Source of the DNA: Thermococcus gammatolerans EJ3
GTDB taxonomy: Archaea > Methanobacteriota_B > Thermococci > Thermococcales > Thermococcaceae
Length of the DNA: 64,000 bases
Direction: 5' to 3'
Assembly: GCF_000022365.1 (NCBI RefSeq)
Contig: NC_012804.1
Location: 372,001-436,000 of the forward strand
In this document: positions 1,233-35,446 of the stretch, piece by piece
Position numbering within the stretch: position 1 is the stretch's first letter
Layout of the letters: every line of letters starts with the position of its first letter
Made by a program: the position numbers and the translations under genes
Notes under the pieces: generated by a model
What the model saw: the letters and a program-made list of their open reading frames with translations, nothing else
What the model was told of the DNA's origin: nothing
Database searches by the model: none

Positions 1233-1250
1233 GACTCCCCTTGCAAAATC

Positions 1251-1260
1251 TTTTTATATA
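1251..1260 (+). promoter_or_regulatory. TATA box of the Lrp-family gene
   Basis: The run TTTTTATATA lies 69 bases before the TTG start of the Lrp-family gene and just after the stop of the oxidoreductase gene. It has the spacing of an archaeal TATA box with a leader of about 40 nt. Confidence 0.5.
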
Positions 1261-1328
1261 TCCTTATGAACAAATCGGTAAAAATCAGAGGCATCTAATG
1301 GCACTGGAAAGCTAGGGGGTGAAAAAAT

Positions 1329-1865: not shown

Positions 1866-1868
1866 AAA

Positions 1869-3014: not shown

Positions 3015-3024
3015 CGCCACCACC

Positions 3025-3756: not shown

Positions 3757-3761
3757 CTCCA

Positions 3762-4697: not shown

Positions 4698-4701
4698 GCT
4701 C

Positions 4702-5865: not shown

Positions 5866-5884
5866 GGCTCTCACCCGTGATGTT

Positions 5885-5943
5885 TTTACAGTGTTGATTT
5901 AAATTTTAAATCTTATAAAGGTTTATATGCAAATTACTGTAAA
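5885..5943. promoter_or_regulatory. Divergent promoter region with nested inverted repeats
   Basis: This 109-base gap separates the M14 operon (minus) from the ceramidase-like gene (plus). It holds a perfect 8-bp outer inverted repeat, TTTACAGT at 5885-5892 and ACTGTAAA at 5936-5943. Inside it is an inner palindrome, GATTTAA-ATT-TTAAATC, at 5896-5912. The plus-strand TATA box is TTTATATG at 5922-5929; the AT-rich palindrome would cover the minus-strand TATA. Symmetric sites flanking both TATA boxes suggest a shared operator bound by one regulator, possibly the nearby Lrp-family protein. Confidence 0.55.
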
Positions 5944-5974
5944 GCAAGCTGAAATTTTATAACGGGTGGTCGCC

Positions 5975-7216: not shown

Positions 7217-7239
7217 AAGAGGGAAAATTATGAGCCCGG

Positions 7240-9969: not shown

Positions 9970-10150
9970 GATATCACCCCATCCTTTCTCGATTTAAAAC
10001 TATTTAAAATATTCGGCTAATTTTGTTAACTTTCTTGCGAATTTTGAACATTTCTTATAGGCTTGTGGACAATATTATCACGATTAAACCCCTTAGAGAG
10101 CTTGAACTCTCTCATGGAAGTCTCTTGTTAATTCTTTAAAGATATACGAA

Positions 10151-10191
10151 AAATTTGTTCCAAATTTCCGAATGAAAATTCTTATATATTT
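10151..10191 (+). promoter_or_regulatory. Palindrome and TATA box upstream of the DUF819 gene
   Basis: The perfect palindrome AAATTTG-TTC-CAAATTT (10151-10167) lies about 15 bases upstream of a strong TATA box, TTATATATTT (10182-10191). A site just upstream of BRE/TATA is where archaeal activators usually bind. A second, weaker dyad, AGAGAG-CTTGAA-CTCTCT, lies at about 10093-10110. The TATA position puts the transcript start near 10215, which also excludes an in-frame ATG at 10172 as the gene start. The rest of the 9970-10234 gap is AT-rich with no gene seen. Confidence 0.5.
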
Positions 10192-10234
10192 CAAGATCTT
10201 AACAACAGATGACGTACCCTTGGGGGTGTTGGCT

Positions 10235-19345: not shown

Positions 19346-20494
19346 TTAAAAAGTTTTCGGATCGAGGAGGAGCGCTGCGAGGAGATGTGCCAGCGCCCAG
19401 GCAACTCCGATCCCCGTTATACCCTGCCTTGTCAAGAGGAAATAACCGAGGATAAGGAAGGATAAGCCCCTAACTAGATTTATCGCCAGGATCCTTCCTG
19501 CGGCACCCTTAACCGTAAGTCCAGAAATCCCAATGTAGACGAGTCCAAACGGCCCCAGCCCGAGTGCGATCATCTTGAGCATCGGGAGGGCGGCGAGGTA
19601 GTCCCCACCAAAGATCTCGAGGATTGGCTTTCCAAGCCAGAAGATGCCGACAACGGCGAGGACCCAGTAGGAGAGTACGAGAGCAAGTGATTTTCTGAAA
19701 AGCGCCTTTTCCCCGTCCCGTATAAGGATAGTTGAGAGTGCCACTATTGGAGTCATCATGAGGTTTCCGATGGTGAAACCTATGTAATAGTAGCCAGTCC
19801 GCGCCTTCCCAAGCTCCACGAGGACTATCGTTGGCATCAAATAGAGGGGGAGCACGTTGACGATGGATCCAAGGTAGTTGCTCAGGGACAGCGCGAGACT
19901 TTCTTTTATGAACTCGACATCGATTGTGAAGGAGACCTGCTCCCGGAACTCAGTCAGTCCCAAAGCCGAAGCGATGGCCAGGCCGAGAGAAGTTGCCAGG
20001 ATCATGCCACTTGCCTTCAGGCCCCGAAAGATGGGCAGAAAAACGACCCTCAGGCCGTACAGGGTGCTCATCTTAACGTACACTTCCGTCCTACAGAGGG
20101 GGATGGAGATGAAGCCTAGGGCGTTGTAAAGGGCTCCAAAGAGACCCAGCAAATAGGCTCCTACGATAAGCCCAGGCCTTTCAAAAACCTTTCCAGGGTT
20201 CATCAGAACGTACGCGGTCGTGAACCCGGTTGAGAGCAATACCATAGCCGTTACCGTCGTGCCGGCGGCTCCCTTTCCGTAGATCCTGTGGAACCTCACG
20301 AGTCCAATGTTCAGCCCGAGTGTGGATAGGGCGAAAACCAGGTTCATGAAGGATACGAGTGCCGAGGCAGTACCTATCTCATCCGGAGGGTACAGTCTGG
20401 CTGCAAAGAGCCAGAAGAGGAGGCCGCTGAGGGCCATTATTATAGTTCCGAGGGTCAGGTCGGTCGTTGACCTTAGGAGAGCCCTCAATCCCAC
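19346..20494 (-). CDS. Wzx/RfbX-like polysaccharide flippase
   Basis: A 382-residue membrane protein with about 11-12 hydrophobic helices and little soluble sequence, resembling the MOP-superfamily oligosaccharide flippases (COG2244). The N-terminal LFWLFAARLYPPDEIGTASALVSF (about 23-46) is the typical first-two-helix signature. It probably moves a lipid-linked glycan across the cytoplasmic membrane. The GTG start at 20494 (or TTG 20488) overlaps the end of aglB by about ten bases, so the flippase is translated right after the oligosaccharyltransferase. At 382 residues it is somewhat short for the family (400-500). Confidence 0.78.
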   Translation of the reverse strand: MGLRALLRSTTDLTLGTIIMALSGLLFWLFAARLYPPDEIGTASALVSFMNLVFALSTLGLNIGLVRFHRIYGKGAAGTTVTAMVLLSTGFTTAYVLMNPGKVFERPGLIVGAYLLGLFGALYNALGFISIPLCRTEVYVKMSTLYGLRVVFLPIFRGLKASGMILATSLGLAIASALGLTEFREQVSFTIDVEFIKESLALSLSNYLGSIVNVLPLYLMPTIVLVELGKARTGYYYIGFTIGNLMMTPIVALSTILIRDGEKALFRKSLALVLSYWVLAVVGIFWLGKPILEIFGGDYLAALPMLKMIALGLGPFGLVYIGISGLTVKGAAGRILAINLVRGLSFLILGYFLLTRQGITGIGVAWALAHLLAALLLDPKTF

Positions 20495-22830
20495 CCATCC
20501 GACCTCCTGAAGACTCCCCTGTCGAGGATGACGTTGTCCCTGAGATATGTATACCTTATCACGACTCCCTTAACCTCTGGGGGTATCTTGAACTCATTCA
20601 TCCCTGAGACGTTGTAAGCCCGCTGGAATACCATCTTCCCCGAGTCCGTGTAACCGTATACCCTCAGGGTGTTTCCGGTCGCGTTTTCGAATTTGAGAAT
20701 TCCTTCCTCACGGACGAGGGCTACGTTTGGGTGAAGGAGCCGGAAGATCTTGACCATCCCACCGTCCGTGTAAACGAGCGTGTAATCCTTGGGGTAATTG
20801 TTCGTGAACATGAGCCTCGCAAACGGAGTCCTAAACGTCTCCCCATCCATTAATACAGCGTAGCCGTAGTTGAAGTTGACGTACAGGTAAGCGTTGCCTG
20901 CTTTTTTCCCGGTTACGTTTGCGATGTAGACTCCGTTTTTATCTTCTATCCACGTTTCGTTGGGTATGAACTGAGCACCTCCAGCGTTAACGAGCACGTC
21001 CCACGTTTTTTCATTCTTCCTTACGGCCACTTGGTAGTTACCGTTCCGGAATATCACGGTGTCCCCGTAGGCCTCCCCGAAGGGTAGGAGGATGAGGACG
21101 TAACCGTTTCCCTGACCGGCGGTTGCTTTGAGCGAGCCCCACTTGAGCATCGTGTCGAGGGAAACCGTGACGTAATCCACCCCGAGCTCCAGGAGATCCT
21201 CCTTTGTAGTTTTCCCCAGGTAGAACGTCGAGACCAGCTCGCTCGGCGTCCCCTGTGCGACTGCCGCCCTGTGAGCAAAATAAGTGACCCAGTGGCCGTG
21301 ATCCCACCAGGTGAGTACTATGTCGTTTTCATTCGAGCTGCCTTCCAAGTACTTCAGGGCAGTTTCCCAGTGCTCATCGACTATGGGTTTCACCTCGTAC
21401 GTGGCCTTTACGGAGTGGTAACCTCCTATGAGCAACAGAACCGCAACGGCGAGGATTCCGAAGGGGCGGGCATCATTCTTTGTCAGTTTGAGGAACTCTG
21501 CCCCACCGATGCCCCCAAGGAGGGCAAGGCCAAAGGATCCGAGGAATAGGAAGCGGGTCCAGTACAGGGGAAGCAGAAGCAGTGGGAGGGCCGAACCGAG
21601 GGCGAAGGCGTCACAGAGCTTCGGCTTTCTCAGGGAGAGCGGGTAGAGAAGAAGGAAGAGCAGGAGCACGTGGTAGGCCGTCTTGATGTCCCACCACCCG
21701 GGTCTTGACATCTCAGCCGTTGCCGCCCCACCGAATGCACTTAGCCCGGCCGAGAGTATCTCCAGCGTGTTCCCGTACCTCCAGAGCAGCCCAGTGAAAA
21801 CGAGAACAGTAACCGTTAGCGTGCCAGCGGTTCCGATCTTTCTGGCCTTCTCCGGAATTTTTGACTTAAGGACCCACAGCAGGGCGATCATTAAGACAGT
21901 CGCTGGGAGGATAATGAGGAGATGGAGACCGAGGTAGGCATCTTGAAGGGGCCCGGGGCTTATTCCTGTGAGCTTTAGGAGCTTTTCCCCCTGCCAGTTC
22001 TCCACCCAGAACATCCCAAAGCCAAAGACCCTGCCAAGGAGAGAGGCTACAACGGCCGCTATTCCCGTTGAGAGTGCCATTAGAAGGCCGTCCATTAAGT
22101 CCTTTCCCCTCAGGAAATAGTAGGCTGAAATGCCGAGCGCAACGAATAGTGGGAGAACGAGAACGATGTAGTAAGCGCTCCAGAAGGCGCTTGAAAGTCC
22201 CCCGGCGAGGCCACCCAGTGCGTAAAACGTTGCTTTTCTTCGGAGGTTTTTCTCAAATAGGGCGAAGGAGAAGAAGAGGAGCACGAGGGAGTACCAGAAG
22301 AGGGCGTAGTTATCACCCCTGTAATAGTTCGACATGGATCTGAAGATGTGTCCAAAGGTTAGGGCCAGGATGAGAGCGGAGAGCAGGGCAGCCTCCTTGG
22401 AGTGTATCCTCTTAATGGTGTAGTAGAGCGCCAGAACGGTGAGAGTTCCAAAGATTGGGGGGGTTAATTTGAACGCGCCGTAGACGGACAGACCAGCCCA
22501 TTTCCCCAGGATGTAGACGGTGTAGGGCGCACCCCACAGACCTTTGGGGTGAAAGTGGTTTATCAGGAAGCCCCACGGGCCGAGGGCGTAGGGGAAATAG
22601 TTCACCCACCCGTGCTCCGTCACGTACTGGAGATATGCCAGATGGAAGTACGGGTCGTAGCCTATCGGGTACTTGAGCCTGTAGGGGATAACCCGTATGA
22701 GGAACGCGATCAGCGCTATGAGTGCGGGAGCAAGGTGGTGTGGGGATTTAAGCCGTTTAAGTGCGGCGGTTTTTTCTTTCTTGTTGCCCCTTTCAATTTC
22801 GCCCTTCTTCCTTCCTCTCTTTCTCGCCAT
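20485..22830 (-). CDS. aglB: Oligosaccharyltransferase AglB/STT3
   Basis: A 781-residue integral membrane enzyme that transfers a lipid-linked oligosaccharide onto Asn in N-x-S/T sequons of exported proteins. After a basic N-terminus, about 13 transmembrane helices span residues 30-460. The first loop has IGYDPYFHL (metal Asp, about 56-64) and the second acidic motif is YRGDNY (about 178-183). The soluble domain begins with the invariant WWDHGHW (about 510), the sequon-binding WWDxG motif. ATG 22830 has GGGTG at suitable distance. It is shorter than the roughly 970-residue AglB-L of Pyrococcus and may be a second paralogue. It is followed by a flippase and is divergent from a sequon-rich repeat protein. 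Confidence 0.92.
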   Translation of the reverse strand: MARKRGRKKGEIERGNKKEKTAALKRLKSPHHLAPALIALIAFLIRVIPYRLKYPIGYDPYFHLAYLQYVTEHGWVNYFPYALGPWGFLINHFHPKGLWGAPYTVYILGKWAGLSVYGAFKLTPPIFGTLTVLALYYTIKRIHSKEAALLSALILALTFGHIFRSMSNYYRGDNYALFWYSLVLLFFSFALFEKNLRRKATFYALGGLAGGLSSAFWSAYYIVLVLPLFVALGISAYYFLRGKDLMDGLLMALSTGIAAVVASLLGRVFGFGMFWVENWQGEKLLKLTGISPGPLQDAYLGLHLLIILPATVLMIALLWVLKSKIPEKARKIGTAGTLTVTVLVFTGLLWRYGNTLEILSAGLSAFGGAATAEMSRPGWWDIKTAYHVLLLFLLLYPLSLRKPKLCDAFALGSALPLLLLPLYWTRFLFLGSFGLALLGGIGGAEFLKLTKNDARPFGILAVAVLLLIGGYHSVKATYEVKPIVDEHWETALKYLEGSSNENDIVLTWWDHGHWVTYFAHRAAVAQGTPSELVSTFYLGKTTKEDLLELGVDYVTVSLDTMLKWGSLKATAGQGNGYVLILLPFGEAYGDTVIFRNGNYQVAVRKNEKTWDVLVNAGGAQFIPNETWIEDKNGVYIANVTGKKAGNAYLYVNFNYGYAVLMDGETFRTPFARLMFTNNYPKDYTLVYTDGGMVKIFRLLHPNVALVREEGILKFENATGNTLRVYGYTDSGKMVFQRAYNVSGMNEFKIPPEVKGVVIRYTYLRDNVILDRGVFRRSDGWD

Positions 22831-22918
22831 CCCTGGCACCCGATTCGGATTGACTTCTTCATATATATCTCTGACGGAAACGTTATATTGTTAAAGGCCG
22901 TAGGGTGGTCTCGTGGTG

Positions 22919-23728
22919 ATGTCCTTGGAGAAAAAGCTCAAGGCCTGGCTCGGCATCCTGACAGTGCTCGTTTTGATTCTCCTGCTGATCGACGCTGCGG
23001 CGGTAATGTTTGCAGTTAAGATCAAGGGAAAAGCGGCTTCCTCTGTTGATCAGGCCATCGAGTCCCTTCAGGATTTGAAGACCAAGACGTTTCAGGTGAA
23101 GGTACCGATCCACAAAACGGTAAAGGTTCCCGTGAACACAACCGTCAGGGTGCACGTTTCAAAGACATTCCACGTAAGGATCGAGAAGACGGTTGAGGTT
23201 GAGGTGGACAAGAGCTTTGAGGTGAACATCTCCGACACCGTCGATGTTCCGATAAACCAGGAGGTAAGTTTCAACGTGCCCATCGATCAGGTCGTTAACG
23301 TGCCGATAAACACGGTAACGAGGGTACACATAGTTCAGACAGTCAACACCACGGCCTACAACAGGGAGAAGAACCTCACCCTCAACGTGACCGTTCCCAT
23401 AGATAAATGGGTAGACGTCCCGATAAACACCACTGTTAAGGTTCACATAAACACCACAGTTCCCGTCACGACCTTGGTGAACACTACCACCTCAGTTCCA
23501 ATAAACACGACCGCAGTCGTTCCGTTTCACGACAAGCTGGAAGTGCCCATAAACACGACCGTTGATGTGCCCTTTGACGACTACTTCGACGTTCCCATAG
23601 ACCAAGAGCTCGAGGTTCCCATCGATATGGAGTTCACGATGAACCTAACGGCCGAGGAGCTGGGCCTCAATGAGATGATAGACCAGGCCGTTCAGATGCT
23701 CGAGGAGATAAAGGCAGGTCTCGGGTGA
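22919..23728 (+). CDS. Membrane-anchored octapeptide-repeat, sequon-rich protein
   Basis: A 269-residue protein of unknown function. One N-terminal transmembrane helix (about 11-33) is followed by a short helix (42-56) and then about 20 repeats of eight residues (about 60-240). The consensus is V-[PH]-[IVF]-[NDE]-x-[TVE]-[VFL]-x, for example VPINTTVK and VPIDQELE. The alternating hydrophobic pattern predicts a beta ladder or solenoid. At least ten N-x-S/T sequons, mostly NTT, fall in the repeats. The C-terminal helix (251-266) closely resembles the helix before the repeats (VDQAIESLQDLKT against IDQAVQMLEEIKA). ATG 22919 is chosen after GGTGG. It is divergent from aglB and precedes two glycosyltransferases; it may be a glycosylated surface or stalk protein. 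Confidence 0.8.
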   Translation: MSLEKKLKAWLGILTVLVLILLLIDAAAVMFAVKIKGKAASSVDQAIESLQDLKTKTFQVKVPIHKTVKVPVNTTVRVHVSKTFHVRIEKTVEVEVDKSFEVNISDTVDVPINQEVSFNVPIDQVVNVPINTVTRVHIVQTVNTTAYNREKNLTLNVTVPIDKWVDVPINTTVKVHINTTVPVTTLVNTTTSVPINTTAVVPFHDKLEVPINTTVDVPFDDYFDVPIDQELEVPIDMEFTMNLTAEELGLNEMIDQAVQMLEEIKAGLG

Positions 23729-23775
23729 GGGTTAAACCTAAAAGTCCACTCCTTCAATTTTTTCCAGGTGAGGTG

Positions 23776-24885
23776 ATGGACGTTTCAGTAATTCTGCCGA
23801 CGATGAACGAGGAAGAGGCAATAAGGGTAGTTCTCCCCAGGATAAAGGGCGTCCTCGATGGAATGGGACTCGATTATGAGATCATAGTAGTGGACAAGAG
23901 CAGTGATCAAACGCCTGAGATAGCCAAAGGGCTCGGTGCGGTAGTGGTCAGACAGAGGGGTAGGGGTTACGGAGATGCATATCTTGAGGGGTTCAGGAGG
24001 GCCAGGGGGAAGTACGTCCTAATGCTCGATCCCGACGGGAGCTACGATCCCGAGGACATACCTGCAATTTTGGAACCCCTTCTTAAGGACGAGGCTGACT
24101 TCGTGATCGGTTCTCGCTTAAAGGGTGAGATGGATCCGGGGGCTATGCCCTGGCTTCACAGGAGGATCGGCAACCCCCTCCTGACGTGGGTCTTGAACCT
24201 GTTCTTCAAGGCCGGAATTTCGGACGCCCACTGTGGCATGAGGGCCATAAAGCGTGACGCCCTTGAAAAACTCCCCCTCAAGTGTAAGGGCATGGAGTTC
24301 GCCAGCGAGATGGTGATAGAGGCGGCGAAGCACGGGCTCCGCATAAGGGAGGTCCCGATACGATATCATCCCCGGATAGGGAAATCAAAACTGAGCTCCT
24401 TCAAGGACGGCTGGCGGCACCTCAGACTGATGCTCCTATATTCCCCGACCCACCTTTTCCTGATCCCCGGGCTCCTGCTTCTCACCCTCGGTCTTTTCCT
24501 CCTGGCATACACCTACGTTTTCGAGCCTATAAGGCTCCACACCATGATACTCGGCTCCCTTCTCCTTATCACGGGGACTCAGGTTCTCGGCTTCGGCGTC
24601 TCGGCCAAGGTTTACGCGGTTAAGGAAGGTCTTGAAAAACCGGATCGGATTACGGGCTTCTTTATGAGGTATTCCATCCTCGAGGAGGGCCTCTTGGTTG
24701 GGGGGATTCTCCTGCTCATGGGTCTCGTCTTGGGTGTTAGGCTGTTCCTCCAGTGGAGGAATGCCAACTACGGTGCGCTGTTCCACATTCAGGAGGCCAT
24801 CCTGATACTGACCCTCATAACCCTCGGCCTTCAGGTGGTCTTCTTCTCCTTCTTCATCAGCGTGTACATGCTCAAGGAGGGTTAG
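23776..24885 (+). CDS. GT2 glycosyltransferase, dolichol-phosphate-sugar synthase-like
   Basis: A 369-residue family-2 glycosyltransferase. The N-terminal catalytic domain (about 1-225) shows VILPTMNEEEAI at the start, the DPDGSYDPEDI metal/nucleotide motif (about 91-101) and the GMRAIKRDALEKL acceptor region. Four hydrophobic helices fill residues about 225-369, as in archaeal dolichol-phosphate mannose or glucose synthases that carry their own membrane part. It would load a sugar from UDP- or GDP-sugar onto dolichol phosphate on the cytoplasmic face. ATG 23776 is preceded by AGGTGAGG. It is followed after 2 bases by a GT4 gene. Confidence 0.87.
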   Translation: MDVSVILPTMNEEEAIRVVLPRIKGVLDGMGLDYEIIVVDKSSDQTPEIAKGLGAVVVRQRGRGYGDAYLEGFRRARGKYVLMLDPDGSYDPEDIPAILEPLLKDEADFVIGSRLKGEMDPGAMPWLHRRIGNPLLTWVLNLFFKAGISDAHCGMRAIKRDALEKLPLKCKGMEFASEMVIEAAKHGLRIREVPIRYHPRIGKSKLSSFKDGWRHLRLMLLYSPTHLFLIPGLLLLTLGLFLLAYTYVFEPIRLHTMILGSLLLITGTQVLGFGVSAKVYAVKEGLEKPDRITGFFMRYSILEEGLLVGGILLLMGLVLGVRLFLQWRNANYGALFHIQEAILILTLITLGLQVVFFSFFISVYMLKEG

Positions 24886-24887
24886 CC

Positions 24888-26027
24888 TTGCGGATCCTCA
24901 TAGTTTCCCCCTATTTCCCCCCTGAGGGTGGTGGGCTTGAGAGCTATGCAATTGCCATGGTCGAAGAGCTCTCGAAAGAACACGAGGTTCGGGTTATATG
25001 TATGAGCAGGTTTGGTTCATCGAAAGAAACCCTGCGGGTTCAGGGAAAGGCCGTACCTCTCGAGCGCGTGAAGGGCTTTGTCCTCTCGAATACACCCCTG
25101 AGCCTGAGGTTCACTCTGAGGCTTTTTTCAATCGTCAAAAACTGGAGGCCCGACCTGATAATAGCCCACACCCCCGTTCCCTTCGCCGCGGACGTCGCCG
25201 CCCTCGCCTCCGCTCTCTTCGGCGTTCCCCTCATAATCGTATACCACACCCTCGGATTGAGGAAGGGGGCCCTCCTTGATGTCATTGCCTCAATTTACTC
25301 GAAGACCCTCGAGCGGTTTACTCTCTCTCGGGCGGCGCTTTTGGTGGCGGTTTCTCCGTCGGTCAGGAATTACCTCAGAGAAACGGGCTTTCGTTCCGTT
25401 GTTGTCCCTCCTCGACCGAAGCTGGAACTTCTCAGCGCGGCTCAGAAGAAACTTCCCCCTAAGGAGAAGATCGTCCTTTTCATCGGTCAGCTCTCTTCCT
25501 TCCATCGCTTCAAGAACTTTGAACTCCTCCTACGGGCCTTCGCTCAGGCCTCGAGGGACCATCCTGACTGGGAACTGTGGGTCGTTGGAGGTGGGGATGA
25601 ACTGCCGAAGTACCGCACCCTCGCCCGGGAGCTCGGTCTGAGCAAAAGAGTCAGGTTTTTCGGTCCGGTCTCCGATGCAAAAAAGCTTGCCGAGATCTAT
25701 TCCAGGGCCTCAATCGTGGTTCTTCCTTCATCCTTTGAGTCCTTTGGGCTTGTCGTTATTGAGGGAGCCATCTTCGGTGCCATCCCCCTTGTTTCGGGTG
25801 CAGTGGCGAAGAATATCTTTCCTCTATATCCTGGGGTTGGCAAGGCCTCTTACGTGTTACGGCAAAAGGCGGAGCTTTCTTCGATGTTAAGCGAGCTGTT
25901 TGGGCATCCGAAAACTTTAAAAAAGCTTTCTGCAATGCTGCGGGAGACTGAGGGATCCAGGAAATCCTTCAAACGGTTTAGATACATCAGCGTTCTTTTA
26001 GAACTCAATCTTTTGGAAAAATTTTGA
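24888..26027 (+). CDS. GT4-type glycosyltransferase
   Basis: A 379-residue GT-B fold enzyme. The N-terminal ILIVSPYFPPEGGGLESYA is the typical acceptor-domain start, and the C-terminal domain has VLFIGQLSSFHRFKN and the E-x7-E motif region LPSSFESFGLVVIEGAI (about 280-296) that binds the nucleotide sugar. It would extend a lipid-linked glycan or glycolipid in the cytoplasm. The start is TTG 24888, two bases after the GT2 stop, with GGAGGG at 24876-24881 as ribosome-binding site. It is co-transcribed with the GT2 gene. Confidence 0.85.
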   Translation: MRILIVSPYFPPEGGGLESYAIAMVEELSKEHEVRVICMSRFGSSKETLRVQGKAVPLERVKGFVLSNTPLSLRFTLRLFSIVKNWRPDLIIAHTPVPFAADVAALASALFGVPLIIVYHTLGLRKGALLDVIASIYSKTLERFTLSRAALLVAVSPSVRNYLRETGFRSVVVPPRPKLELLSAAQKKLPPKEKIVLFIGQLSSFHRFKNFELLLRAFAQASRDHPDWELWVVGGGDELPKYRTLARELGLSKRVRFFGPVSDAKKLAEIYSRASIVVLPSSFESFGLVVIEGAIFGAIPLVSGAVAKNIFPLYPGVGKASYVLRQKAELSSMLSELFGHPKTLKKLSAMLRETEGSRKSFKRFRYISVLLELNLLEKF

Positions 26028-26192: not shown

Positions 26193-29100
26193 ATGAATAA
26201 GCGCAGGAAAGCGCAAATTTTTAGCCTGATGCTGGCATTTTTAATGCTGGCATCAGTCATTCCAGGGACGTTCCTCAAACCAGTGAGCGCTGCTGGTTAC
26301 ATTACTAGTGTTAGTGCCGAGACTAACTACGGAGATGGAGTTCTGTTTGCAGGATTCCCGTACTTCGTTAACGTAACAATTAACGCGAGCTCCAGTACTT
26401 TCGCAAACGTTACCCTCTACTACGAGTACCAGGATGGACACAACGTTACAGTGTACTCGAGAGTTGTTCCGATAACATCTCCCCCAGGATCAATAAACGT
26501 CCTCATAAACTCGAGCGACCCGACTGATGTTCCTCCGGAGTATGAGAAGGTGCCGCAGGACGTCAGCAAGGTCTACCTCATCGTCTACGAGTACGACATA
26601 GCCAACGGCAACATCCCGGGAACCAACAGGACCTTTGAGTTCGACGTTAAGTTCCCGTTCACAGTTACCTATACGATTCAGAGCTCTCCCTCAGCTAACT
26701 GGCAGGCCTACTACTGGAACGGAAGTGCTTGGGCAGATGACCAGGCCTTTGTCGGAATGCCGTTTGACATCAAGGTTACCATCAAGTACAACAGCACACT
26801 CATCGGAAGTGGAGTTACCCTTCCCGATCCGAGCAACCTCACGGTTATACTGGCAAACCAGACCCCTGTGACTTGGTATCATGTAGGCACCGGCACTGAG
26901 AGCAATGGTCAGATTGCACTGCAGTTCGAGAATGCGAACCTCTCAACTGGAGAATATAACTTCTCCGCAACAGGCCTCGTTACAAACACCCCAATACTCA
27001 ATGGTGTCCTTGAGAGGATTGTTGTTGAGGACAATGAGAACAACCTTGTTAACTCGATCCACACGTTCCACATCTGGCCACTTGTTATGGAGATAACCAA
27101 CGTTGAAACCCAGCCGCCAACCCTCTATCAGAACCTCCCGTTCAACGTCACCCTCACTGGCCAAGTGTTTGCCAACATTAGTGGTACGCTCCACAACTTC
27201 ACCATCGTGGGTTCGAGTTTAGAGGGCAGAGAAGCAAAGATTGTGGACTCAGATGGTAACAGCCACACCATGACGTTTGGATTTGCAACTGGCTTAGTTC
27301 CGAACGGTGGAATAGGAACTGCCCACTGGACAAACGTCCAGTTTAGTGGAACATACTTCAATGCTACATGGGCAGACAACATCCTATATATCCCAGTAGA
27401 GCCATTTGGTGCGGGTTACTATTATTATCCACGTTATAAGACAATAGACTATCAGTATAACCCGATACCCCTTAACTACTGGAACCTCAACGTTATCACC
27501 AGCGTGACCATCAACGGCCAGAGCTCGAGCGTCTTCTACATCAACGTCCCAGGTGAGCTCAACATAAGCGTCTACTACGATGACACCAACTACTACAACC
27601 TCACCACAACTGCTAACTATGAGGTACTTCTCAACGGCAACGTCATCGACAGCGGAACCATCAACGTTGTCAACGATACCGGCTGGACAGTCACCACGAT
27701 CACCCCGGACGAGCTCGGCATGATCAGCGTTAAGGTCTGGGATCCGGTCTACCACCCAGATCCAGCTTACAGCCCGCAGATTGAGGTCAGGGACTGGAAC
27801 GTTACCAGTGACTACCTCGTCTACTACCACTACGGTGGATCAATCTACCCAGGAAAGGTCTTCTACGTTGGAGTTCCTTCCGACCTGTGGGTCAACGCTA
27901 CCTACACCCTCGGCGTAAACCTCACCTCCAGCGTCAACGTCACCGTCTACGATGAGCACAACAACATAATCAACAGCACTATCATCCCGATAACCAACAA
28001 CTACGGTGCGGGATTCGTGCTTCACAACTTCGTCCCGCCGCAGATCGGCTACGTCACCGTCAAGGTCTACAACGGCACCTACAAGGTCTGGACTACCTAC
28101 GTGATCCCCATCAAGGACTGGGGCATCTACGTTGACAGCACACCGGAGAACCTCACCGTCGGCAAGTCAGTTCCGCTTACGGTCGAAGTCAGGGAGAGCC
28201 TCTACTTCCCAGGTGAGAGGGACGCCAACGTAACCCTGTACCTACCCGACGGTACTGTCAAGACCGAAACCGTTACCCTTGAGGGAAGCACATACACTGG
28301 CAATGGAGGGTACTATGGAGTTGTCACGTTCACTAATGTTACTCCAACCCTTCCTGGTCTCGCTAAGGTTGTCGTTGAGGATCTAACCTCTGGCAAGACC
28401 GCCGTCAAGTACATCCCGGTTTACCCGAACGGCGAGGTAACCGGCAGGTGGATCGACGTCAAGGTTACCCCCGAGAAGACCCCGGTTTACGCTTACGTTG
28501 AGAACTCCCTCAGGATTGACGCCCAGTACTACTACAACATGGGCGATGGCGCTTACAAGGACGAGGTTAACAGCTACGTCAACATAACTATCATCGATGC
28601 CGACGGCAGCACTTACAAGCTCAGCAACGTTCCGGTCGTCAACGGCGTCGTTACCATACCCAGCTACCAGCTTCCGGTCAACGGAACCAGCCCAATCTAC
28701 GTCGAGCTCGTTGATACGATCAACAGCAGCATCCGCGGTGTTGCTGAGATACCCGTCCAGAACTGGCAGGTCACCTTCGACATAACCCCGGACTTCGTCT
28801 ACCAGTACGTTGACAGCATAGCAAAGATAACCGTCCACGTTCCGGCCGGCGTCGCCGTTGACGTCAACGTCAGCGGAACCGTTTACACCGGCGTCACCGA
28901 CGGCCAGGTCATAAGCATACCGATAGTTGACCCGACCGAGGCCATAGACGTTAACGTCGTCGCGACATACCACAACGCCGTTGCCGGCAAGGACTACGAG
29001 GTCGGAAGCGCGAGCAAGACCATCGAACTCAGGGGCTGGCACGTTGAGCTCTCCTACAGCCCGAGCGTCATCTACACCCACATCCCGGACACCCTCGTCG

Positions 29101-32100
29101 TCAACGCGGTAGCCGTCGACAACGAAACGGGTGAGATACTGCCGTTTGAGCTCGATGTTGCCCTCTACAACGAGACACTCGACGTAGTTGCCACTGGCAC
29201 TAACACCGTCAGTGTCTCAATTCAGGACGACGTTGGTGCTGGACTGACCTACTTCGTTACAGTTAGCTATGGCGCTCACGAGATGGTCACCTACGAGCCA
29301 ATACTCATCGACACCCACGACTGGGCCATCGATGTCACCAAGACCATAACCTCAAGCGCCTACAGCGGAACTGACTACCTCTGGGCAGGAGTTCCGGCCC
29401 AGATAACCTTCAGCGTCGTTACCTACGACCTTGACACCGAGGAGCAGATCAACCTCCCGGTCAGCATACCGATCAACGTTACTTACAACGGCTACACCTA
29501 CACCGGAACCGACTCTATAACGATCAACCTCGCCTCACCAGAGCCGGCCAGCGAGGCTTTCCACGTTGAGGCTGCCTACGAGGACATAAGCTACGTCAAT
29601 GACTTCGTCATCCCGGTCAAGGACTGGAGCATCTACGTCAACGCCTACCCGAGCAAGCTCTACGCCGACCTGCCGCAGCAGCTGACCCTCATAATCGGCT
29701 ACAGCGCTGGAATCGAGAGCGTCGCCACAGTTGACGTTGGTGGAACCACCTACACCGCCCACGTCGAGCCGGTTGGTGAGGACAGCGCCATAGCGGTCGT
29801 CAACGTTGGCGAGGTCGTCGCCTCCGAGGGCTACGTCCGCGTCACTGTCACCGACCAGTACGGCAAGACGGCCACCCTCAAGATACCGGTCGTCAGCTGG
29901 GACATCGCGGTCACCTCGAACGTCAACTTCGTCTACACAAACGTCTCAACTGACATCACCGTTGACGTCCACTACAGTGACAGCATGCTCGACGGAAACG
30001 CCAACGTTTACCTCGTCCTGCCGGATGGAACCGTGCTGAGCCAGACGGCTATCATCCTCGACGGCAAAGGTCAGGTTACCTTCACCGGCGTTACCGCTGA
30101 CAGGGCTGGTAACATCACCATCTACGCCGAGGACGCTGCCTCCGGCAAGAAGAGCGACAACATTACGATCGAGGTCCACGACTGGCACATGGAGGTTACC
30201 CTTGAGCCAACCGAGTGGTACACCTACCTGCCGCAGGACTACACCGTTGGAATCAAGTACATTGACGATGTTACAGAGGGTATAGCGGACATTGACTCAA
30301 CTGTGGAGGTTAGCTACAACCTCACAGGTGTCACCGGCAGCGAGCTCGTCGACGTCACCGGTGGTCAGGGAGAGGTCACCTTCACAGGCCTCGCTACTGA
30401 GAATGCTGGCGTCGGAACCTTTACTGTAACGGACGCTGCCCACGGCAAGAGCAGAATCGTCAATGTAACCATCCACGGATGGAACGTCCTCGTCACTTAC
30501 CCGGAGGAGCTCTTCGTTGCTCCGGGCTACAAGAACCCGGTCGTCGTTGGCTTTGAATACATTGCCGATGACAACAGCACTGTTCCGTACACTGGCAACA
30601 CTACCATAACGATTGAGCTCCCCGGCAACATAACCCTCAGCGCGAACGTCAACGCCAGCCCGGTTGACTTTGGAATGATCGAGCTCAACCAGACGGGCGT
30701 TGGAACCATAACCGTTGTTGCCAACGACTACCCGGCCATCAGTTTCACTGGCACCATCCAGGTTGAGAACCTCCTCGAAATGAACCTCACCACCAAGAGG
30801 ATCTACGAGAACGTTCCGACTGAGATCGTCGCCAACATAACCTACAACGGCGGTGACTATCACGAGCTGGAGGTCTACATTGAGGGACAGAACATAACCC
30901 TGACCACTACAGACGGTCAGATATGGACTGCCGAGGTCAGCCTCCCAGCTGGCAACTACACGGTCGTTGCCTACGACACAGCTCACAACATTACAGTCAC
31001 CGACACGTTCCACGTCGTCCCATGGCACCTTGAGATAATTCCAAGCACTACCAGCATCTCTGCGGGTGACCTTGAAGTGGTTAACTTCACAGTCAGGGCC
31101 ATTGACGATGAGACCAACGCCACCGCTGACATTGACGCTCTAATACACGTGCAGATAACCTTCAGCAACCCAGCACTCATACCGAACGGTACCTTCACCG
31201 TTGAGGACTTCAACCTCGTGGACGGCGAGTACACCTTCAACGAGAGCCTATTCGCACCAGCTCCGGGCAACTTCACCGTCAAGGCCATGGCAGTTGACTA
31301 CGGCAAGTGCGCCAAGACAGTTATCGAGGTCACCGAGCCAACCGTTTCGCCAACCTGGGTTTACGTAGACATAGTCAAGGAGGGCAGCCTTGAGGCTCCA
31401 AACGACACAGTTGTCCTCTACTGGTCTGTCGACGGCAGGACGTACTTCCCGGCCTACGACTACCTCAAGCAGGCCATAGTTCAGGTTGACACAACCGTGA
31501 CTACGAGGGTTGTCTTCCCGCTCTACCCGGTCAATGAGTTCACCCTCTACGTGATAGCTGTTCCGAAGTTCATCGCCGACAAGTACCCGATCCTCACATC
31601 CACGCCAATCGATGCCACTGTCACCCACGAGTACGTCTGGTACAACTACTCTGTCACAGTCGTCAACGAGACCATAAGCGCCAGCGCAGTTGTCTACAAG
31701 AGGACCATAACCGAAGGCTGGACCTACCAGATCCCGAGGGCTCCCGGTTACATCTCAGTAATCCCACCCGCCTCAGTGCAGGGCATTGCTCCGTACACCG
31801 GCTATGAGTTTGTCCACACCGAGGAGCTCGTCAACGACACCGGTAGCGCGAGCTACACATTCACCTTCGAACCGACCGAGTTCATCGAGTTCAACAAGAT
31901 AAGCACTCTCAGCATCCAGCCTGCTCAGTACGGCTCATACTTCGAGTTCGAGGCAGTGCTCTATGAGAAGTACCTCAACATGAGCGGCCAGTTCGATGAG
32001 CAGTTTGAAGCCTTCGAGAGCAACGTCGAGAGCATGGTTGAGAGCCTGCAGTTCCTCAGCGACGATGACAAGCAGGAGCTCATAAACGAGATAATCAACG

Positions 32101-33296
32101 AGGCCCTCAGCTACAAGGACGACATCATCGGTGCCTATCCGGAGGACGAGATTCCGATCAGCGGCGCTGAGGTACAGTTCCACATCGACAACCCAGCCAT
32201 AGCGTACCTCGAGCCGGTCAACGCCACCACCGATGAGAACGGCAAGGTCATCGTTAGGCTCTACTCTGCCGCACCAAAGGACGCCACCCCAGAGGAGCTC
32301 GTCAACTACATGGGCAGCGTCACCATCTGGGCTACCTATGACAACATGACGACTGACAGCTACACGGTCTCCTTCGGTGGCATCGGTAGCGTATCCGGTG
32401 ACGTTGTCGACCCGAACAACAACCTCCTGCCTGGAGCCAAGGTCGAGCTCTGGATCAATGACAACGGTGAGTGGGTTATCGCTAAGGACTACGCTGGCAA
32501 TAACATCACCACCATCACCGACGGCCACGGCCACTACTCGTTCAACGTACCGGCTGCCCCGCAGGGAACCGCCTACAGGGTCGTTGCCTACTACGGAGAT
32601 GGCACCGGCTACGCGGACGTGATCGTCTATCCGTTCAAGACCAGCACTGCCGACGTCGTTGTCACAACCTACGAGACCACCAACGTTACCGGACTCGGAG
32701 CCTTCCTCAGCGACGCCCAGATCCACGACGTCAAGATAGTCCTTGGCAAGAACGCCCTCACATCAGTCGACTACCACGCTATGGACTTCCTCCTCGAGTA
32801 CATCGGTGTCAAGCCCGTCTACAGTGACAGCGACATCAACGTTGAGGGACTCTCCGCCACCGACATGATAATAGCCGTTGGTGGTCCTGAGGTCAACGAC
32901 ATTACCGCCCACTACCAGGAGCTTACTCCGGTCAGGATGGTCACCAACGCTGACGGTTCAATAAGCATCGTCGTCGACAACGAGACGGTCGCCAACTGGA
33001 GCGCCCCGAGCCCATGGTGGAACGTTACCGAGGGCTACTGGGTCATCCAGAGGGTCGTCGATCCGGACACCGGTGCAGTGGTCTACATGATCTACGGTAC
33101 CGACGCTGACAGCACCTGGGCTGCGGCTTACTACTTCAGCAAGCACTTCAGCGAGCTCAACAACGTCAACTACGTCGTTGGCTACTGGGAGGACACCGAC
33201 AGCATGATCTACAGCCCAGCGTTCCTTAAGTTCGCCAGCGACGACAAGAACGGATTCAGCCCGACCGATAACATCGGGGTAGTCGTTGAGGGCTGA
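26193..33296 (+). CDS. Giant S-layer-like surface protein with tandem beta domains
   Basis: A 2367-residue exported protein. The signal peptide (about 1-33) ends KPVSAA. The body is beta-rich, full of Thr, Val, Asn and Tyr, with many N-x-S/T sequons and almost no Cys. From about residue 535 to 1430 a Trp-centred linker ([IV]x[IV]xxWxxxV, e.g. IPVKDWSIYV) recurs every 90-110 residues, marking about ten Ig-like domains. A carboxypeptidase-regulatory-like beta domain follows near 2065-2145. The last 190 residues, with AVGGPEVNDI and a stretch of alternating Ala around ADSTWAAAYYF, look like the S-layer C-terminal domain of archaeal S-layer proteins. Probably a glycosylated wall component or large adhesin exported by Sec; it lies beside aglB and glycosyltransferases. 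Confidence 0.85.
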   Translation: MNKRRKAQIFSLMLAFLMLASVIPGTFLKPVSAAGYITSVSAETNYGDGVLFAGFPYFVNVTINASSSTFANVTLYYEYQDGHNVTVYSRVVPITSPPGSINVLINSSDPTDVPPEYEKVPQDVSKVYLIVYEYDIANGNIPGTNRTFEFDVKFPFTVTYTIQSSPSANWQAYYWNGSAWADDQAFVGMPFDIKVTIKYNSTLIGSGVTLPDPSNLTVILANQTPVTWYHVGTGTESNGQIALQFENANLSTGEYNFSATGLVTNTPILNGVLERIVVEDNENNLVNSIHTFHIWPLVMEITNVETQPPTLYQNLPFNVTLTGQVFANISGTLHNFTIVGSSLEGREAKIVDSDGNSHTMTFGFATGLVPNGGIGTAHWTNVQFSGTYFNATWADNILYIPVEPFGAGYYYYPRYKTIDYQYNPIPLNYWNLNVITSVTINGQSSSVFYINVPGELNISVYYDDTNYYNLTTTANYEVLLNGNVIDSGTINVVNDTGWTVTTITPDELGMISVKVWDPVYHPDPAYSPQIEVRDWNVTSDYLVYYHYGGSIYPGKVFYVGVPSDLWVNATYTLGVNLTSSVNVTVYDEHNNIINSTIIPITNNYGAGFVLHNFVPPQIGYVTVKVYNGTYKVWTTYVIPIKDWGIYVDSTPENLTVGKSVPLTVEVRESLYFPGERDANVTLYLPDGTVKTETVTLEGSTYTGNGGYYGVVTFTNVTPTLPGLAKVVVEDLTSGKTAVKYIPVYPNGEVTGRWIDVKVTPEKTPVYAYVENSLRIDAQYYYNMGDGAYKDEVNSYVNITIIDADGSTYKLSNVPVVNGVVTIPSYQLPVNGTSPIYVELVDTINSSIRGVAEIPVQNWQVTFDITPDFVYQYVDSIAKITVHVPAGVAVDVNVSGTVYTGVTDGQVISIPIVDPTEAIDVNVVATYHNAVAGKDYEVGSASKTIELRGWHVELSYSPSVIYTHIPDTLVVNAVAVDNETGEILPFELDVALYNETLDVVATGTNTVSVSIQDDVGAGLTYFVTVSYGAHEMVTYEPILIDTHDWAIDVTKTITSSAYSGTDYLWAGVPAQITFSVVTYDLDTEEQINLPVSIPINVTYNGYTYTGTDSITINLASPEPASEAFHVEAAYEDISYVNDFVIPVKDWSIYVNAYPSKLYADLPQQLTLIIGYSAGIESVATVDVGGTTYTAHVEPVGEDSAIAVVNVGEVVASEGYVRVTVTDQYGKTATLKIPVVSWDIAVTSNVNFVYTNVSTDITVDVHYSDSMLDGNANVYLVLPDGTVLSQTAIILDGKGQVTFTGVTADRAGNITIYAEDAASGKKSDNITIEVHDWHMEVTLEPTEWYTYLPQDYTVGIKYIDDVTEGIADIDSTVEVSYNLTGVTGSELVDVTGGQGEVTFTGLATENAGVGTFTVTDAAHGKSRIVNVTIHGWNVLVTYPEELFVAPGYKNPVVVGFEYIADDNSTVPYTGNTTITIELPGNITLSANVNASPVDFGMIELNQTGVGTITVVANDYPAISFTGTIQVENLLEMNLTTKRIYENVPTEIVANITYNGGDYHELEVYIEGQNITLTTTDGQIWTAEVSLPAGNYTVVAYDTAHNITVTDTFHVVPWHLEIIPSTTSISAGDLEVVNFTVRAIDDETNATADIDALIHVQITFSNPALIPNGTFTVEDFNLVDGEYTFNESLFAPAPGNFTVKAMAVDYGKCAKTVIEVTEPTVSPTWVYVDIVKEGSLEAPNDTVVLYWSVDGRTYFPAYDYLKQAIVQVDTTVTTRVVFPLYPVNEFTLYVIAVPKFIADKYPILTSTPIDATVTHEYVWYNYSVTVVNETISASAVVYKRTITEGWTYQIPRAPGYISVIPPASVQGIAPYTGYEFVHTEELVNDTGSASYTFTFEPTEFIEFNKISTLSIQPAQYGSYFEFEAVLYEKYLNMSGQFDEQFEAFESNVESMVESLQFLSDDDKQELINEIINEALSYKDDIIGAYPEDEIPISGAEVQFHIDNPAIAYLEPVNATTDENGKVIVRLYSAAPKDATPEELVNYMGSVTIWATYDNMTTDSYTVSFGGIGSVSGDVVDPNNNLLPGAKVELWINDNGEWVIAKDYAGNNITTITDGHGHYSFNVPAAPQGTAYRVVAYYGDGTGYADVIVYPFKTSTADVVVTTYETTNVTGLGAFLSDAQIHDVKIVLGKNALTSVDYHAMDFLLEYIGVKPVYSDSDINVEGLSATDMIIAVGGPEVNDITAHYQELTPVRMVTNADGSISIVVDNETVANWSAPSPWWNVTEGYWVIQRVVDPDTGAVVYMIYGTDADSTWAAAYYFSKHFSELNNVNYVVGYWEDTDSMIYSPAFLKFASDDKNGFSPTDNIGVVVEG

Positions 33297-33352
33297 GGCC
33301 CTTCCAACCTTTCTTTTCTCGTTTGTTTATTACAACTCCTTCGGTGGTCGTT

Positions 33353-35446
33353 TTGATTTCGAAGAATTCTCCAATGGGTAAAACATTGGCTGCTGGTGTG
33401 TTTCTCGTGGTATGGTTTGTTATAAGGTTTAGTTCTGGTAGAATAACGACAACCTTCGACGAAGCCTACTATCTCTCAACTCTGAGAATAGGCGGTGTGT
33501 ACTCGGGAATGATAACCCCCTGTGTTCTGCGGGCGGTTAACGCTATCATTTCTAACCCCGTGATTTCCCTCCTATTAGTCTCGTTGGGGCTGTTCATTGT
33601 CTATCCTTTTCTTCTTCTCAGATTCCATAAATCGTTCAGCGGTTATTCATCAATGTCGTTTCCGTTTTTCTTGGCTTTACTCCTGAGCAGCCACCTCCTG
33701 TGGTCCTCCAACGAGGTCAGACCGCAGCAGATAGGAACACTAGTGGGTCTGGCTCTTCTTCTGTTTATCCTTAGGGTTCACGAGGAAGATTTACCTAGAT
33801 TTAAGGTACTCCTCGGGGTCTCCGTTCTGTGGGTCTTGTTGGGCCTTGCCCATATCCTTTCATTTGCAGTGTTTCTTGCCTTAGTCTGGTTCGTGGGCGT
33901 TCTTGAACTGATTAGGGGCAGACCCCTAAAGGTTTACTTCCTTTCGCTGGTTCCTTCTTTTTTTGCCCTCTTCCTTCTTTTCATGCCCGGATACGAGACT
34001 ATGGTCTTCTCGATAAAATGGATGTTCAAGCACTCCACAAACACCCTGTTCCATTTTCTTGGCTGGAACTTTTACTCGTCCCTCCTTCTTGGATGGCTTT
34101 TCCTTTTGGTCTCCGGTCCAATTGTTGCCTCACTGTGGAGAAGAACTCCTACTTTCAGTTTGATTCTGGAGAGAATTAGGGGTGAGGTCGTTAGGAGGGC
34201 AGGGTTATACACCCTCCTTGGAACCCTTGCAATGCTAGCCCTTATGATACTTCAGTTCTATTTGGGGAGAAACGTTTACGAACTCGTGTACCGCAGTCCT
34301 AATTTCATCGTGATAATGCAGGCAGGAAACTTTCTCTTTGGAATCCTCACCATCGCGGGGTTTATCGGATCGCTCAATGAAAAACGATCCGACTTCAGTA
34401 GGGAGGTTCTCGTCTTCATGGTAGTTCTAATGGTTTTCGCCCTTCTCGTCTCGACGGTGATGCCTGCCAGCTTCGGAAGCTTTGGCTTCAGAAACTGGAT
34501 GATCCGAATGTATCAGTACTTCGTCGTGTTCTCCCTTCCCTTTGTAGCGCGTGAGATCGAGGCCTTGTTGGGCAGCCTACAATGGCGTAGGGCATTTGTT
34601 TTCATATTAGTCTTTGGGATCACAGCTAGTGTTCTAAACGTTAGCCGTCCTCCCATCGCTTATAACTACCCCTACTACTGGACAGGGTGCGATCTTGAGC
34701 TGCTGTCCCGGGTGGGTCCGGGGTTTGTTTATAAGGGGGATACCCTCACTCCCCCTGAGAATTCCCTTGTGCTATCGTTCCTAGGGTGGGCCTATGGAAA
34801 CCGCATTGAGCCCTATCCGGGTAACGTGGAACCTCTTCCAGAATCCGATCTCTGCGTCTCAGACCTGTGCCATTCTCCTTATCCCTACAGGGAGATCCCC
34901 CTGACTTCAGTGAACCTATCCCGTGCGACAATTGTTACGGGAAACATTCCTCCGGATCTTGTGTCTTGGATTCGCTCTCTCTTTCACATTAGAGGAGAAG
35001 GAGACCCCGTTCTTGCTTTGGGCAACTCCACCTTAAATCCTCTGATTTCAAAACTTGAGTCTCAGTACTTCCTCCCGGTGGTGGTCAACTACTCGGTAAT
35101 TACTGGCCCCCACTTCAGGTACTATTTCGCCATCAGGGAGGGAAGGATAAAGGGGGACGTTGACCGCTCGATGTTCGTCGTTCAGGCGGTCTTAGTAAAC
35201 GACACCCCCGTGATCGTCATCAGCTCACCTTCCCTGGACGGTGTTGCCGCCGGGCTCTGGTTACTCAAAAATGAAATCCTCCGGAACAGAACGAAGTGGG
35301 GGAATGTCTCCTTTGTAGTTGGTGAGTGGGATGAGATGGATGGAAGGGTTCTCCCTATTGTCAGGGCTTACTCCGGTGATAAAAACGGCTTCAGTTATGG
35401 GGACAGGATAAAAATTCTGAGAATCGGAACGGTCGGAAAGCCCTGA
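33353..35446 (+). CDS. GT-C-like multi-pass membrane protein with S-layer-type C-terminal domain
   Basis: A 697-residue protein with about 11-12 hydrophobic helices in the first 440 residues and a soluble tail. The loop after the first helix has TTFDEAYYLS; an Asp-Glu pair there is the metal/catalytic signature of GT-C enzymes such as ArnT and PMT, which take sugars from a polyprenyl phosphate. The final 190 residues (VNDTPVIVISSP, VSFVVGEWDEMDG, SGDKNGFSYGD) parallel the end of the giant protein just upstream. The TTG 33353 start is favoured because GGTGGT lies 4 bases before it. It follows the giant gene by 56 bases. Function as a glycosyltransferase is inferred, not shown. Confidence 0.65.
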   Translation: MISKNSPMGKTLAAGVFLVVWFVIRFSSGRITTTFDEAYYLSTLRIGGVYSGMITPCVLRAVNAIISNPVISLLLVSLGLFIVYPFLLLRFHKSFSGYSSMSFPFFLALLLSSHLLWSSNEVRPQQIGTLVGLALLLFILRVHEEDLPRFKVLLGVSVLWVLLGLAHILSFAVFLALVWFVGVLELIRGRPLKVYFLSLVPSFFALFLLFMPGYETMVFSIKWMFKHSTNTLFHFLGWNFYSSLLLGWLFLLVSGPIVASLWRRTPTFSLILERIRGEVVRRAGLYTLLGTLAMLALMILQFYLGRNVYELVYRSPNFIVIMQAGNFLFGILTIAGFIGSLNEKRSDFSREVLVFMVVLMVFALLVSTVMPASFGSFGFRNWMIRMYQYFVVFSLPFVAREIEALLGSLQWRRAFVFILVFGITASVLNVSRPPIAYNYPYYWTGCDLELLSRVGPGFVYKGDTLTPPENSLVLSFLGWAYGNRIEPYPGNVEPLPESDLCVSDLCHSPYPYREIPLTSVNLSRATIVTGNIPPDLVSWIRSLFHIRGEGDPVLALGNSTLNPLISKLESQYFLPVVVNYSVITGPHFRYYFAIREGRIKGDVDRSMFVVQAVLVNDTPVIVISSPSLDGVAAGLWLLKNEILRNRTKWGNVSFVVGEWDEMDGRVLPIVRAYSGDKNGFSYGDRIKILRIGTVGKP

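Follow-up and report, generated by a model that had tools for sequence, protein, structure and literature searches.

The 64,000-nucleotide stretch analyzed here (hereafter the window), positions 372001-436000 of the single-contig, 2.05 Mb genome of Thermococcus gammatolerans EJ3 (genome G000), encodes a giant secreted surface protein of 2367 residues and, in an adjacent gene on the same strand, a membrane protein that structure prediction assigns to the GT-C-type glycosyltransferases. The last ~180 residues of the two proteins are homologous, and this common tail is a contiguous relative of the 'outer/anchor' domain (PF05124) of archaeal surface layer (S-layer) proteins. Known fold families are here found in a new, conserved combination. 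A first-pass annotation of the window had noted that the two C-termini run in parallel, and had suggested that a glycosyltransferase-like enzyme with an S-layer-type domain on its outer side could dock to or modify the surface layer. In outline, that idea is partly supported by the present analysis.

The features on which the argument rests are the following (window coordinates).

26193..33296, + strand: giant secreted surface protein, 2367 residues, with an N-terminal signal-like segment and the C-terminal tail
32736..33290, + strand: tail domain of the giant, residues 2182-2366, a contiguous alpha/beta domain of the S-layer anchor type
33165..33275, + strand: C-terminal module of the giant's tail (VVGYWEDTD ... 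DDKNGFSPTDNI), possibly a Ca-binding loop
33374..35446, + strand: GT-C-type membrane protein with tail, 690 residues from the likely ATG
33374..34690, + strand: membrane part with predicted GT-C fold, approximately residues 1-440 of 690
33458..33463, + strand: Asp29-Glu30 of the DE[SA]YY motif, presumed catalytic acidic motif of the first loop, invariant in 19/19 copies
34898..35428, + strand: tail domain of the membrane protein, residues 526-702 of 707

The open reading frame (ORF) of the membrane protein is open from a TTG at 33323 (33323-35446), giving 707 residues, and its first ATG at 33374 gives 690. A T-rich stretch follows the stop codon of the giant, so that the two genes may or may not be co-transcribed. 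The giant contains 10.6% Thr, 6.4% Ser and 67 N-sequons, and in profile comparisons has weak matches to Ig-like and carboxypeptidase-regulatory-like domains.

Two homologous C-terminal domains

Searching 94 genomes of the family with the membrane protein gave matches in 24, from which 20 regions were taken; together with the window these yielded 19 full-length membrane proteins and two pieces ending at contig edges. The parallel between the C-termini is already apparent in a direct BLASTP comparison, in which residues 612-699 of the membrane protein align with residues 2277-2364 of the giant (E 6e-6, 29% over 90 residues). The Smith-Waterman score is 96, against a mean of 32.3 (standard deviation 5.2) and a maximum of 61 in 500 shuffles. 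A hidden Markov model of the 19 membrane-protein tails matches the tail of the giant with an independent E-value of 5e-27, over residues 2182-2366 of the giant and 526-702 of the membrane protein. Pairwise profile alignment, the check proposed with the first-pass annotation, bears the parallel out: hhalign aligns 21 surface-protein tails with the 19 membrane-protein tails over 183 columns with a probability of 99.95 (E 8.2e-38). When G000 is searched with the giant's tail, only two places are found up to E 10, namely the giant itself and the membrane protein.

Near their C-termini all 31 tail-bearing surface proteins of more than 300 residues and all 19 membrane proteins have the pattern D.[NST]GF[SN]..D, which was derived from these same tail alignments and occurs in none of 305 other ORFs of more than 150 residues in the first set of regions. 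Tail pieces shorter than 300 residues (in loci L043, L052, L109, L110 and L111) are excluded from this count and from those of upstream neighbors and hydrophobic stretches given below.

A tree of 40 tails places the enzyme tails on one side of a branch (support 97/94), and 16 tails of the larger surface proteins form another branch (98/93). The two groups show a similar branching order. From this separation and parallel branching the fusion of enzyme and tail seems to be old, and the pairs of giant and enzyme seem to have diverged together.

The tail is related to the S-layer anchor domain

That the shared domain is of S-layer type, as first proposed, is upheld by both sequence profiles and structure comparison. 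PF05124 (S_layer_C, the S-layer 'outer domain') is detected in 16 of the 21 surface-protein tails at E up to 0.1, with a best value of 1.3e-8. The giant's tail scores 23.9 bits alone, equal to the family cut-off, and 15.8 bits within the whole protein; the GT-C-type protein of the window has no match to PF05124 at E up to 1. A profile of the last ~115 residues of S-layer proteins from the same family of genomes (15 of 19 proteins, four having been removed by a crude filter on the last residues) matches a mixed profile of both kinds of tail with a probability of 94.6 (E 7e-8), and matches surface-protein tails alone and enzyme tails alone with probabilities of 88.4 and 87.8.

An AlphaFold model of the giant's tail has a mean predicted local distance difference test score (pLDDT) of 88.6. 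Foldseek comparison of this model with the PDB gives a single match under E 0.001, entry 9FSA (E 6.3e-5), and a profile search of PDB sequences with the tail likewise finds 9FSA alone up to E 10 (E 0.0012). In VIA structure comparison the giant's tail has the fold of the S-layer anchor domain, aligning with 9FSA over 122 of 135 residues with a Z score of 11.3. Residues 507-637 of the GT-C-type protein, in a model of low confidence, match the same structure over 103 residues (Z 7.8, row 19 of the comparison). Both tail models therefore match 9FSA, and the unrelated folds that had been named beforehand as speaking against a common domain were not seen. Domains of GH67, GH84 and GH115 enzymes are also near the giant's tail in fold.

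The PDB title of 9FSA is cell wall anchoring domain of the Methanococcus voltae surface layer protein. According to PMC11410804, 9FSA is the domain through which the anchor dimerizes, and S-layers predicted for P. abyssi, T. camini, T. thioreducens and others have a dimeric anchor, reported there in 2024 as previously undescribed. Canonical S-layer proteins carry the domain in two parts, separated by an inner part that forms the lattice. The S-layer protein of G000 itself, which starts ~1.15 kb past the end of the window (L086:3151-5031; G000:C1 ~437150-439030), has this split arrangement, with PF05124 matches over residues 44-623 of 627. In the tail alignments (A2, A3) the domain is contiguous. 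The tails extend further into a short C-terminal module, of which the S-layer protein of G000 stops short.

This module may bind Ca2+. Related domains, up to profile position 175, are carried by secreted proteins of 321-334 residues in five genomes of other families of the class, and these end the domain with WKDNNGDxFVQKDEI; a further member from the class has WKDLNEDGLIQESEI at the corresponding place. We take these loops to resemble EF-hand loops, and it is this resemblance in the class relatives that suggests Ca2+ binding by the NGFS module of the tail. Tail-like proteins from other families of the class occur in loci L093, L094, L095, L096, L097 and L098, the last being 272 residues long; the one 321-334-residue protein tested, in L093, contains a DUF4430 domain.

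A membrane protein of predicted GT-C type

On the basis of a model of low confidence, the membrane protein is predicted to be of GT-C type; it is not a canonical oligosaccharyltransferase. None of the 19 copies matches a Pfam GT-C family, PMT and PMT_2 included, at E up to 0.1; the only Pfam matches at this threshold are two weak ones to S_layer_C and two to WH4_Lhr. The first Foldseek match of the full-length model is A. fulgidus AglB (3waj; probability 1.00, E 0.022), and ArnT (0.80) and ALG9 (0.44) are also found. Rows 1-18 of the VIA comparison are GT-C enzymes with Z scores of 10.9-19.7 (STT3, AglB, ALG12, AftA, PglB, Pmt4, ArnT, Emb and ALG9), in agreement with the GT-C-like enzyme initially suggested; here the class of individual PDB entries is presumed from their titles, and for two of the 18, which belong to translocon complexes, the identity of the chain is assumed. 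In this model the membrane part appears closest in fold to STT3/AglB.

An acidic motif of this kind has a role in GT-C enzymes, and the membrane protein has DE[SA]YY after its first helix in 19/19 copies, probably on the first outer loop. By analogy with GT-C enzymes, a catalytic role is presumed for Asp29-Glu30. AglB/STT3 oligosaccharyltransferases are marked by the motif WWDYG; its absence from 19/19 copies rules out an oligosaccharyltransferase proper.

The tail of the enzyme stands where AglB has its extracytoplasmic domain. In the eight window-like copies, those closest to the enzyme of the window, there are 3-7 N-sequons in the C-terminal part and 0-2 in the larger membrane part, which argues for outer exposure of the C-terminal part in these eight copies. 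The remaining copies, with 0-3 per part, are uninformative, and one copy is uncounted. The proposed location of the tail on the outer side of the membrane is thus favored. The GT-C-type protein is the only polytopic tail-bearing protein seen.

Distribution and genomic context

A profile of the membrane part alone matches 20 of the 94 family genomes, and the same 20 among 115 genomes of the phylum. The tail is present in 19/19 full-length copies of the membrane protein, and the membrane family was never seen without it among full-length copies; all 20 enzyme-bearing genomes hold another tail-bearing protein. The tail profile itself matches 39 of the 94 genomes at E up to 0.001. The matches are strong (E below 1e-15) in 24 and weak in 15 (E 8e-5 to 1e-3, frames of 441-692 residues); in the two weak cases compared (G056, G064) they coincide with PF05124 matches. 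Since PF05124 is found in 91/94 family genomes, an S-layer is a general feature and the tail module has a patchy distribution.

Strong tail matches without a match to the membrane part occur in four genomes: G034 and G036, G061 (where a contig starts with a tail piece of the enzyme type) and G028 (short pieces). The short tail-bearing pieces of G028 (L109:14468-15133 and L110:7427-7921) are possibly remnants of lost tail proteins. The tail proteins of G034 and G036 make the tail seem functional without the enzyme too, which suggests that it also works otherwise, perhaps with the S-layer protein.

The S-layer protein of G000 is divergent, and in all eight genomes with a window-like enzyme the best PF05124 E-value is above 1e-18. 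Among the 61 genomes of the genus this is otherwise so in only two incomplete ones (74 and 73%), and two have no match. This divergence may reflect either kinship or co-adaptation.

Six enzyme-bearing contigs were found in a named collection, four of them labelled Thermococcus, one Thermococci archaeon and one Thermotogaceae. The last, L090 (JARRBB010000097.1), a metagenome-assembled genome contig with a tailed enzyme, has neighbors resembling those in L011 and L040; we therefore take it to be probably a misbinned Thermococcales contig and not a case of transfer. G067 (6% contamination) carries the enzyme at two loci, of which one is truncated at the end of its contig, and is not used as evidence for repeated acquisition.

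In 19/19 full-length loci a tail-bearing large protein is encoded upstream of the enzyme on the same strand, within 1 kb in 17 and at 3.0 and 6.0 kb in the other two. Several loci have an ORF of 230-250 residues between the two genes; comparison of one of these with Pfam gave no match at E 0.01. Upstream of the giant, the window contains the following further genes.

20485..22839, - strand: AglB-like oligosaccharyltransferase (TIGR04154 E 6e-13, under its cut-off)
22913..23728, + strand: 271-residue protein upstream of the GT2 gene, without a Pfam match at E 0.01; homologues in 3/18 other loci
23725..24885, + strand: glycosyltransferase family 2 (GT2) transferase (PF00535 E 1e-29), a candidate polyprenyl-phosphate-sugar synthase
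24882..26027, + strand: glycosyltransferase family 4 (GT4) transferase (PF13439/PF00534), ORF open from 24753

Homologues of the GT2 transferase are present in at least 15 of the 18 other full-length loci (E below 1e-50), lying downstream of the enzyme in L044 and L046, those of the GT4 transferase in at least 12 of 18 (E below 1e-80) and those of AglB in at least 7 of 18; these counts are lower bounds, as the regions are at most 20 kb long and several begin near the giant. In L040 a second GT-C-type protein (7874-10033, 720 residues, PMT_2 E 6e-15) is encoded between the tail-bearing giant and the tailed enzyme. L042 has tandem tail-bearing surface proteins of 2030 and 1616 residues (420-6509 and 6613-11460) upstream of the enzyme.

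The original pairing of one giant with one enzyme stands as regards the common tail, which is real, and falls as regards a single pair: the tail is the terminal domain of several types of secreted protein. It ends solute-binding proteins (SBP_bac_5 in L066/L108 and L100), a protein of the papain family that has PEGA (L102), one of the clostripain family that has Ig repeats (L104) and a beta-helix protein of the NosD type (L106). In all 31 tail-bearing surface proteins the last 200 residues are free of hydrophobic stretches, and 5/31 have one internal hydrophobic stretch. A distinct tail subtype is found in surface proteins of ~840 residues (L048:7425-9944 and relatives in L044, L046, L047 and L050), in which a further 31-35 residues, Cys and aromatics among them, come after the tail.

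Possible function of the tailed enzyme

Starting from the observed homology, fold, terminal position and conserved neighborhood of the tails, the interpretation to which we give about an even chance is that the tail docks the enzyme, bringing a polyprenyl-phosphate-sugar transferase to tail-bearing acceptors at the S-layer. The tail would then be a compact, uninterrupted version of the dimerizing S-layer anchor domain, extended by the short C-terminal module, and would serve for docking at the cell surface. It would keep the giant at the S-layer or beneath it, and would do the same for binding proteins and proteases in relatives, a role as a retention device that is suggested because the tail-bearing secreted proteins have no other visible C-terminal anchor. 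The GT-C-type protein, with the same tail on its outer side, would be concentrated beside these secreted proteins. There it would transfer a sugar to tail-bearing proteins, the neighboring giant first of all, from a polyprenyl-phosphate donor in whose supply the GT2 gene of the locus probably helps. The giant or other tail-bearing proteins would be the likeliest acceptors, rather than the lattice protein.

Several observations weigh against this docking interpretation. On the side of the enzyme, the membrane protein of the window has no Pfam match at E up to 1 and its full-length model is weak (mean pLDDT 60.7, from 7 sequences); no Foldseek match of this model is at E 0.001 or better, and among the 50 matches listed those other than the GT-C enzymes are mostly transporters, with probabilities up to 0.20. 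On the side of the tail, PF05124 is touched at E up to 0.1 by only 2/19 membrane-protein copies, and in VIA the giant's tail is as close to the BcsB periplasmic domain as to 9FSA (Z 12.0 vs 11.3, a tie). The mixed tail profile matches the enzyme of the window only over positions 57-201 of 201, leaving the first quarter unmatched; among the eight window-like enzymes the match starts at ~52-57 in six and at 3 and 5 in the others, so that most of them have a shortened or divergent first part of the tail domain. Long tail-bearing frames (2096 and 955 residues) are present without a GT-C match in G034 (1 contig) and G036 (50 contigs). Finally, the N-sequons may be served by AglB alone.

An alternative that we regard as unlikely is a tail-to-tail clasp in which the tail of the GT-C-type protein pairs with that of the giant as in the S-layer anchor dimer, the enzyme doubling as membrane anchor. 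PMC11410804 describes the homologous S-layer domain as an anchor that forms dimers, with 9FSA as the dimerizing unit. The restriction of polytopic structure to the GT-C-type protein among tail proteins and the similar branching order of the two tail groups would fit such a partnership. So would the co-variation of distances, in which the partial correlation is 0.35 between the two tails (0/2000 shuffles as high) and 0.11 between tail and membrane part; this signal is weak, covers the 15/19 loci with a GT2 homologue good enough as control, comes from shuffles that ignore kinship, and is not used here as proof. Against the clasp stand the tail proteins without an enzyme in G034 and G036, which also make it less likely that every tail protein is anchored by the enzyme alone, and the several tailed proteins per enzyme in some genomes (three besides the enzyme in G031).

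It is quite unlikely, in our estimate, that each tail binds on its own to the S-layer lattice or its anchor and that the enzyme modifies the S-layer protein itself. The near-universal PF05124 would make the S-layer protein available as a partner where the enzyme is absent, and a divergent S-layer protein is present in 8/8 genomes with a window-type enzyme, which may be mere kinship. Independent binding leaves unexplained the constant position of the enzyme downstream of a tail-bearing large protein.

We find it improbable that the tail is a glycan- or polymer-binding module, with an enzyme that makes or extends a surface polysaccharide or a lipid-linked sugar in place of a protein glycan. The closeness of the fold to BcsB and to domains of the glycoside hydrolases named above would agree with this, as would the second GT-C (PMT_2) gene in L040; sequence profiles point instead to S-layer proteins, and tails also end protease-like and binding proteins. 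Despite the modest pairwise similarity of the tails, it is scarcely conceivable that their likeness is a recent duplication or an artefact of sequence composition without functional meaning: chance resemblance and recent duplication are ruled out by the shuffles, the hhalign result, the two separately conserved groups in the tail tree and the matching folds, and the linkage is 19/19.

Taken together with the clasp, the docking interpretation extends to a broader proposal that we consider doubtful as a whole: a previously undescribed Thermococcales system in which a tail derived from the S-layer anchor would sort unrelated secreted proteins onto the envelope, and the tailed GT-C enzyme would be both their transmembrane anchor, by tail-to-tail dimerization, and their dedicated glycosyltransferase. 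How S-layer proteins without a C-terminal membrane helix are attached to archaeal cells is, to our knowledge, an open question, and a multi-pass enzyme carrying an S-layer anchor domain is an obvious candidate for a partner of that anchor in the membrane, or for a mimic of it. The tailed enzyme would physically link glycosylation machinery to surface acceptors. The tail can also be used, by its sequence, to look for S-layer-associated proteins in Thermococcales and, should it be sufficient for docking, would offer a route to protein display on hyperthermophiles.

Comparison with known systems

In line with the initial impression that the pairing is new, searches of the literature outside bioRxiv and most subscription journals found neither a GT-C enzyme described as carrying an S-layer anchor domain nor an account of the tail on binding proteins or proteases. 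The closest Thermococcales module that they brought up is VARTIG (PMC8416519), which likewise involves a large Ig-like surface protein that starts a patchy gene cluster. In that work, the C-terminal motif DNNxxxGG is reported for 31 module proteins and the word glycosyltransferase is absent from the main text. Here DNNxxxGG is absent from 31/31 surface proteins and 19/19 enzymes, which rules out VARTIG, as described there, as the known form of the tail module.

The BcsB periplasmic domain of cellulose secretion is close in fold to the giant's tail (VIA Z 12.0, root mean square deviation 2.6 over 150 residues). It belongs to bacterial polymer secretion and has no sequence match to the tail in the PDB profile search, which gave 9FSA only.

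With AglB/STT3, PMT, ArnT and ALG9/ALG12 the enzyme has in common the predicted GT-C fold over approximately residues 1-430, the acidic motif after the first helix and a C-terminal domain beyond the membrane part. It differs from them in having neither WWDYG nor a Pfam GT-C match in any of the 19 copies, and in a C-terminal domain of the S-layer anchor type.

S-layer proteins with PF05124, among them 9FSA and G000's own, are surface proteins with the same alpha/beta domain, by profile and by fold. In these the domain is split by the inner part, whereas the tails described here are contiguous, have the extra C-terminal WxxxD...DxNGFSxxD module, and are attached to proteins of other kinds, a membrane enzyme among them.

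The CGP-CTERM/archaeosortase systems are sorting and anchoring systems that act on C-terminal tails. As here, a common C-terminal region is found on unrelated secreted proteins, and a membrane enzyme is present in largely the same genomes. The system described here differs from them in that the tail is a folded domain of ~190 residues without a hydrophobic helix, and in that the enzyme itself carries the tail.

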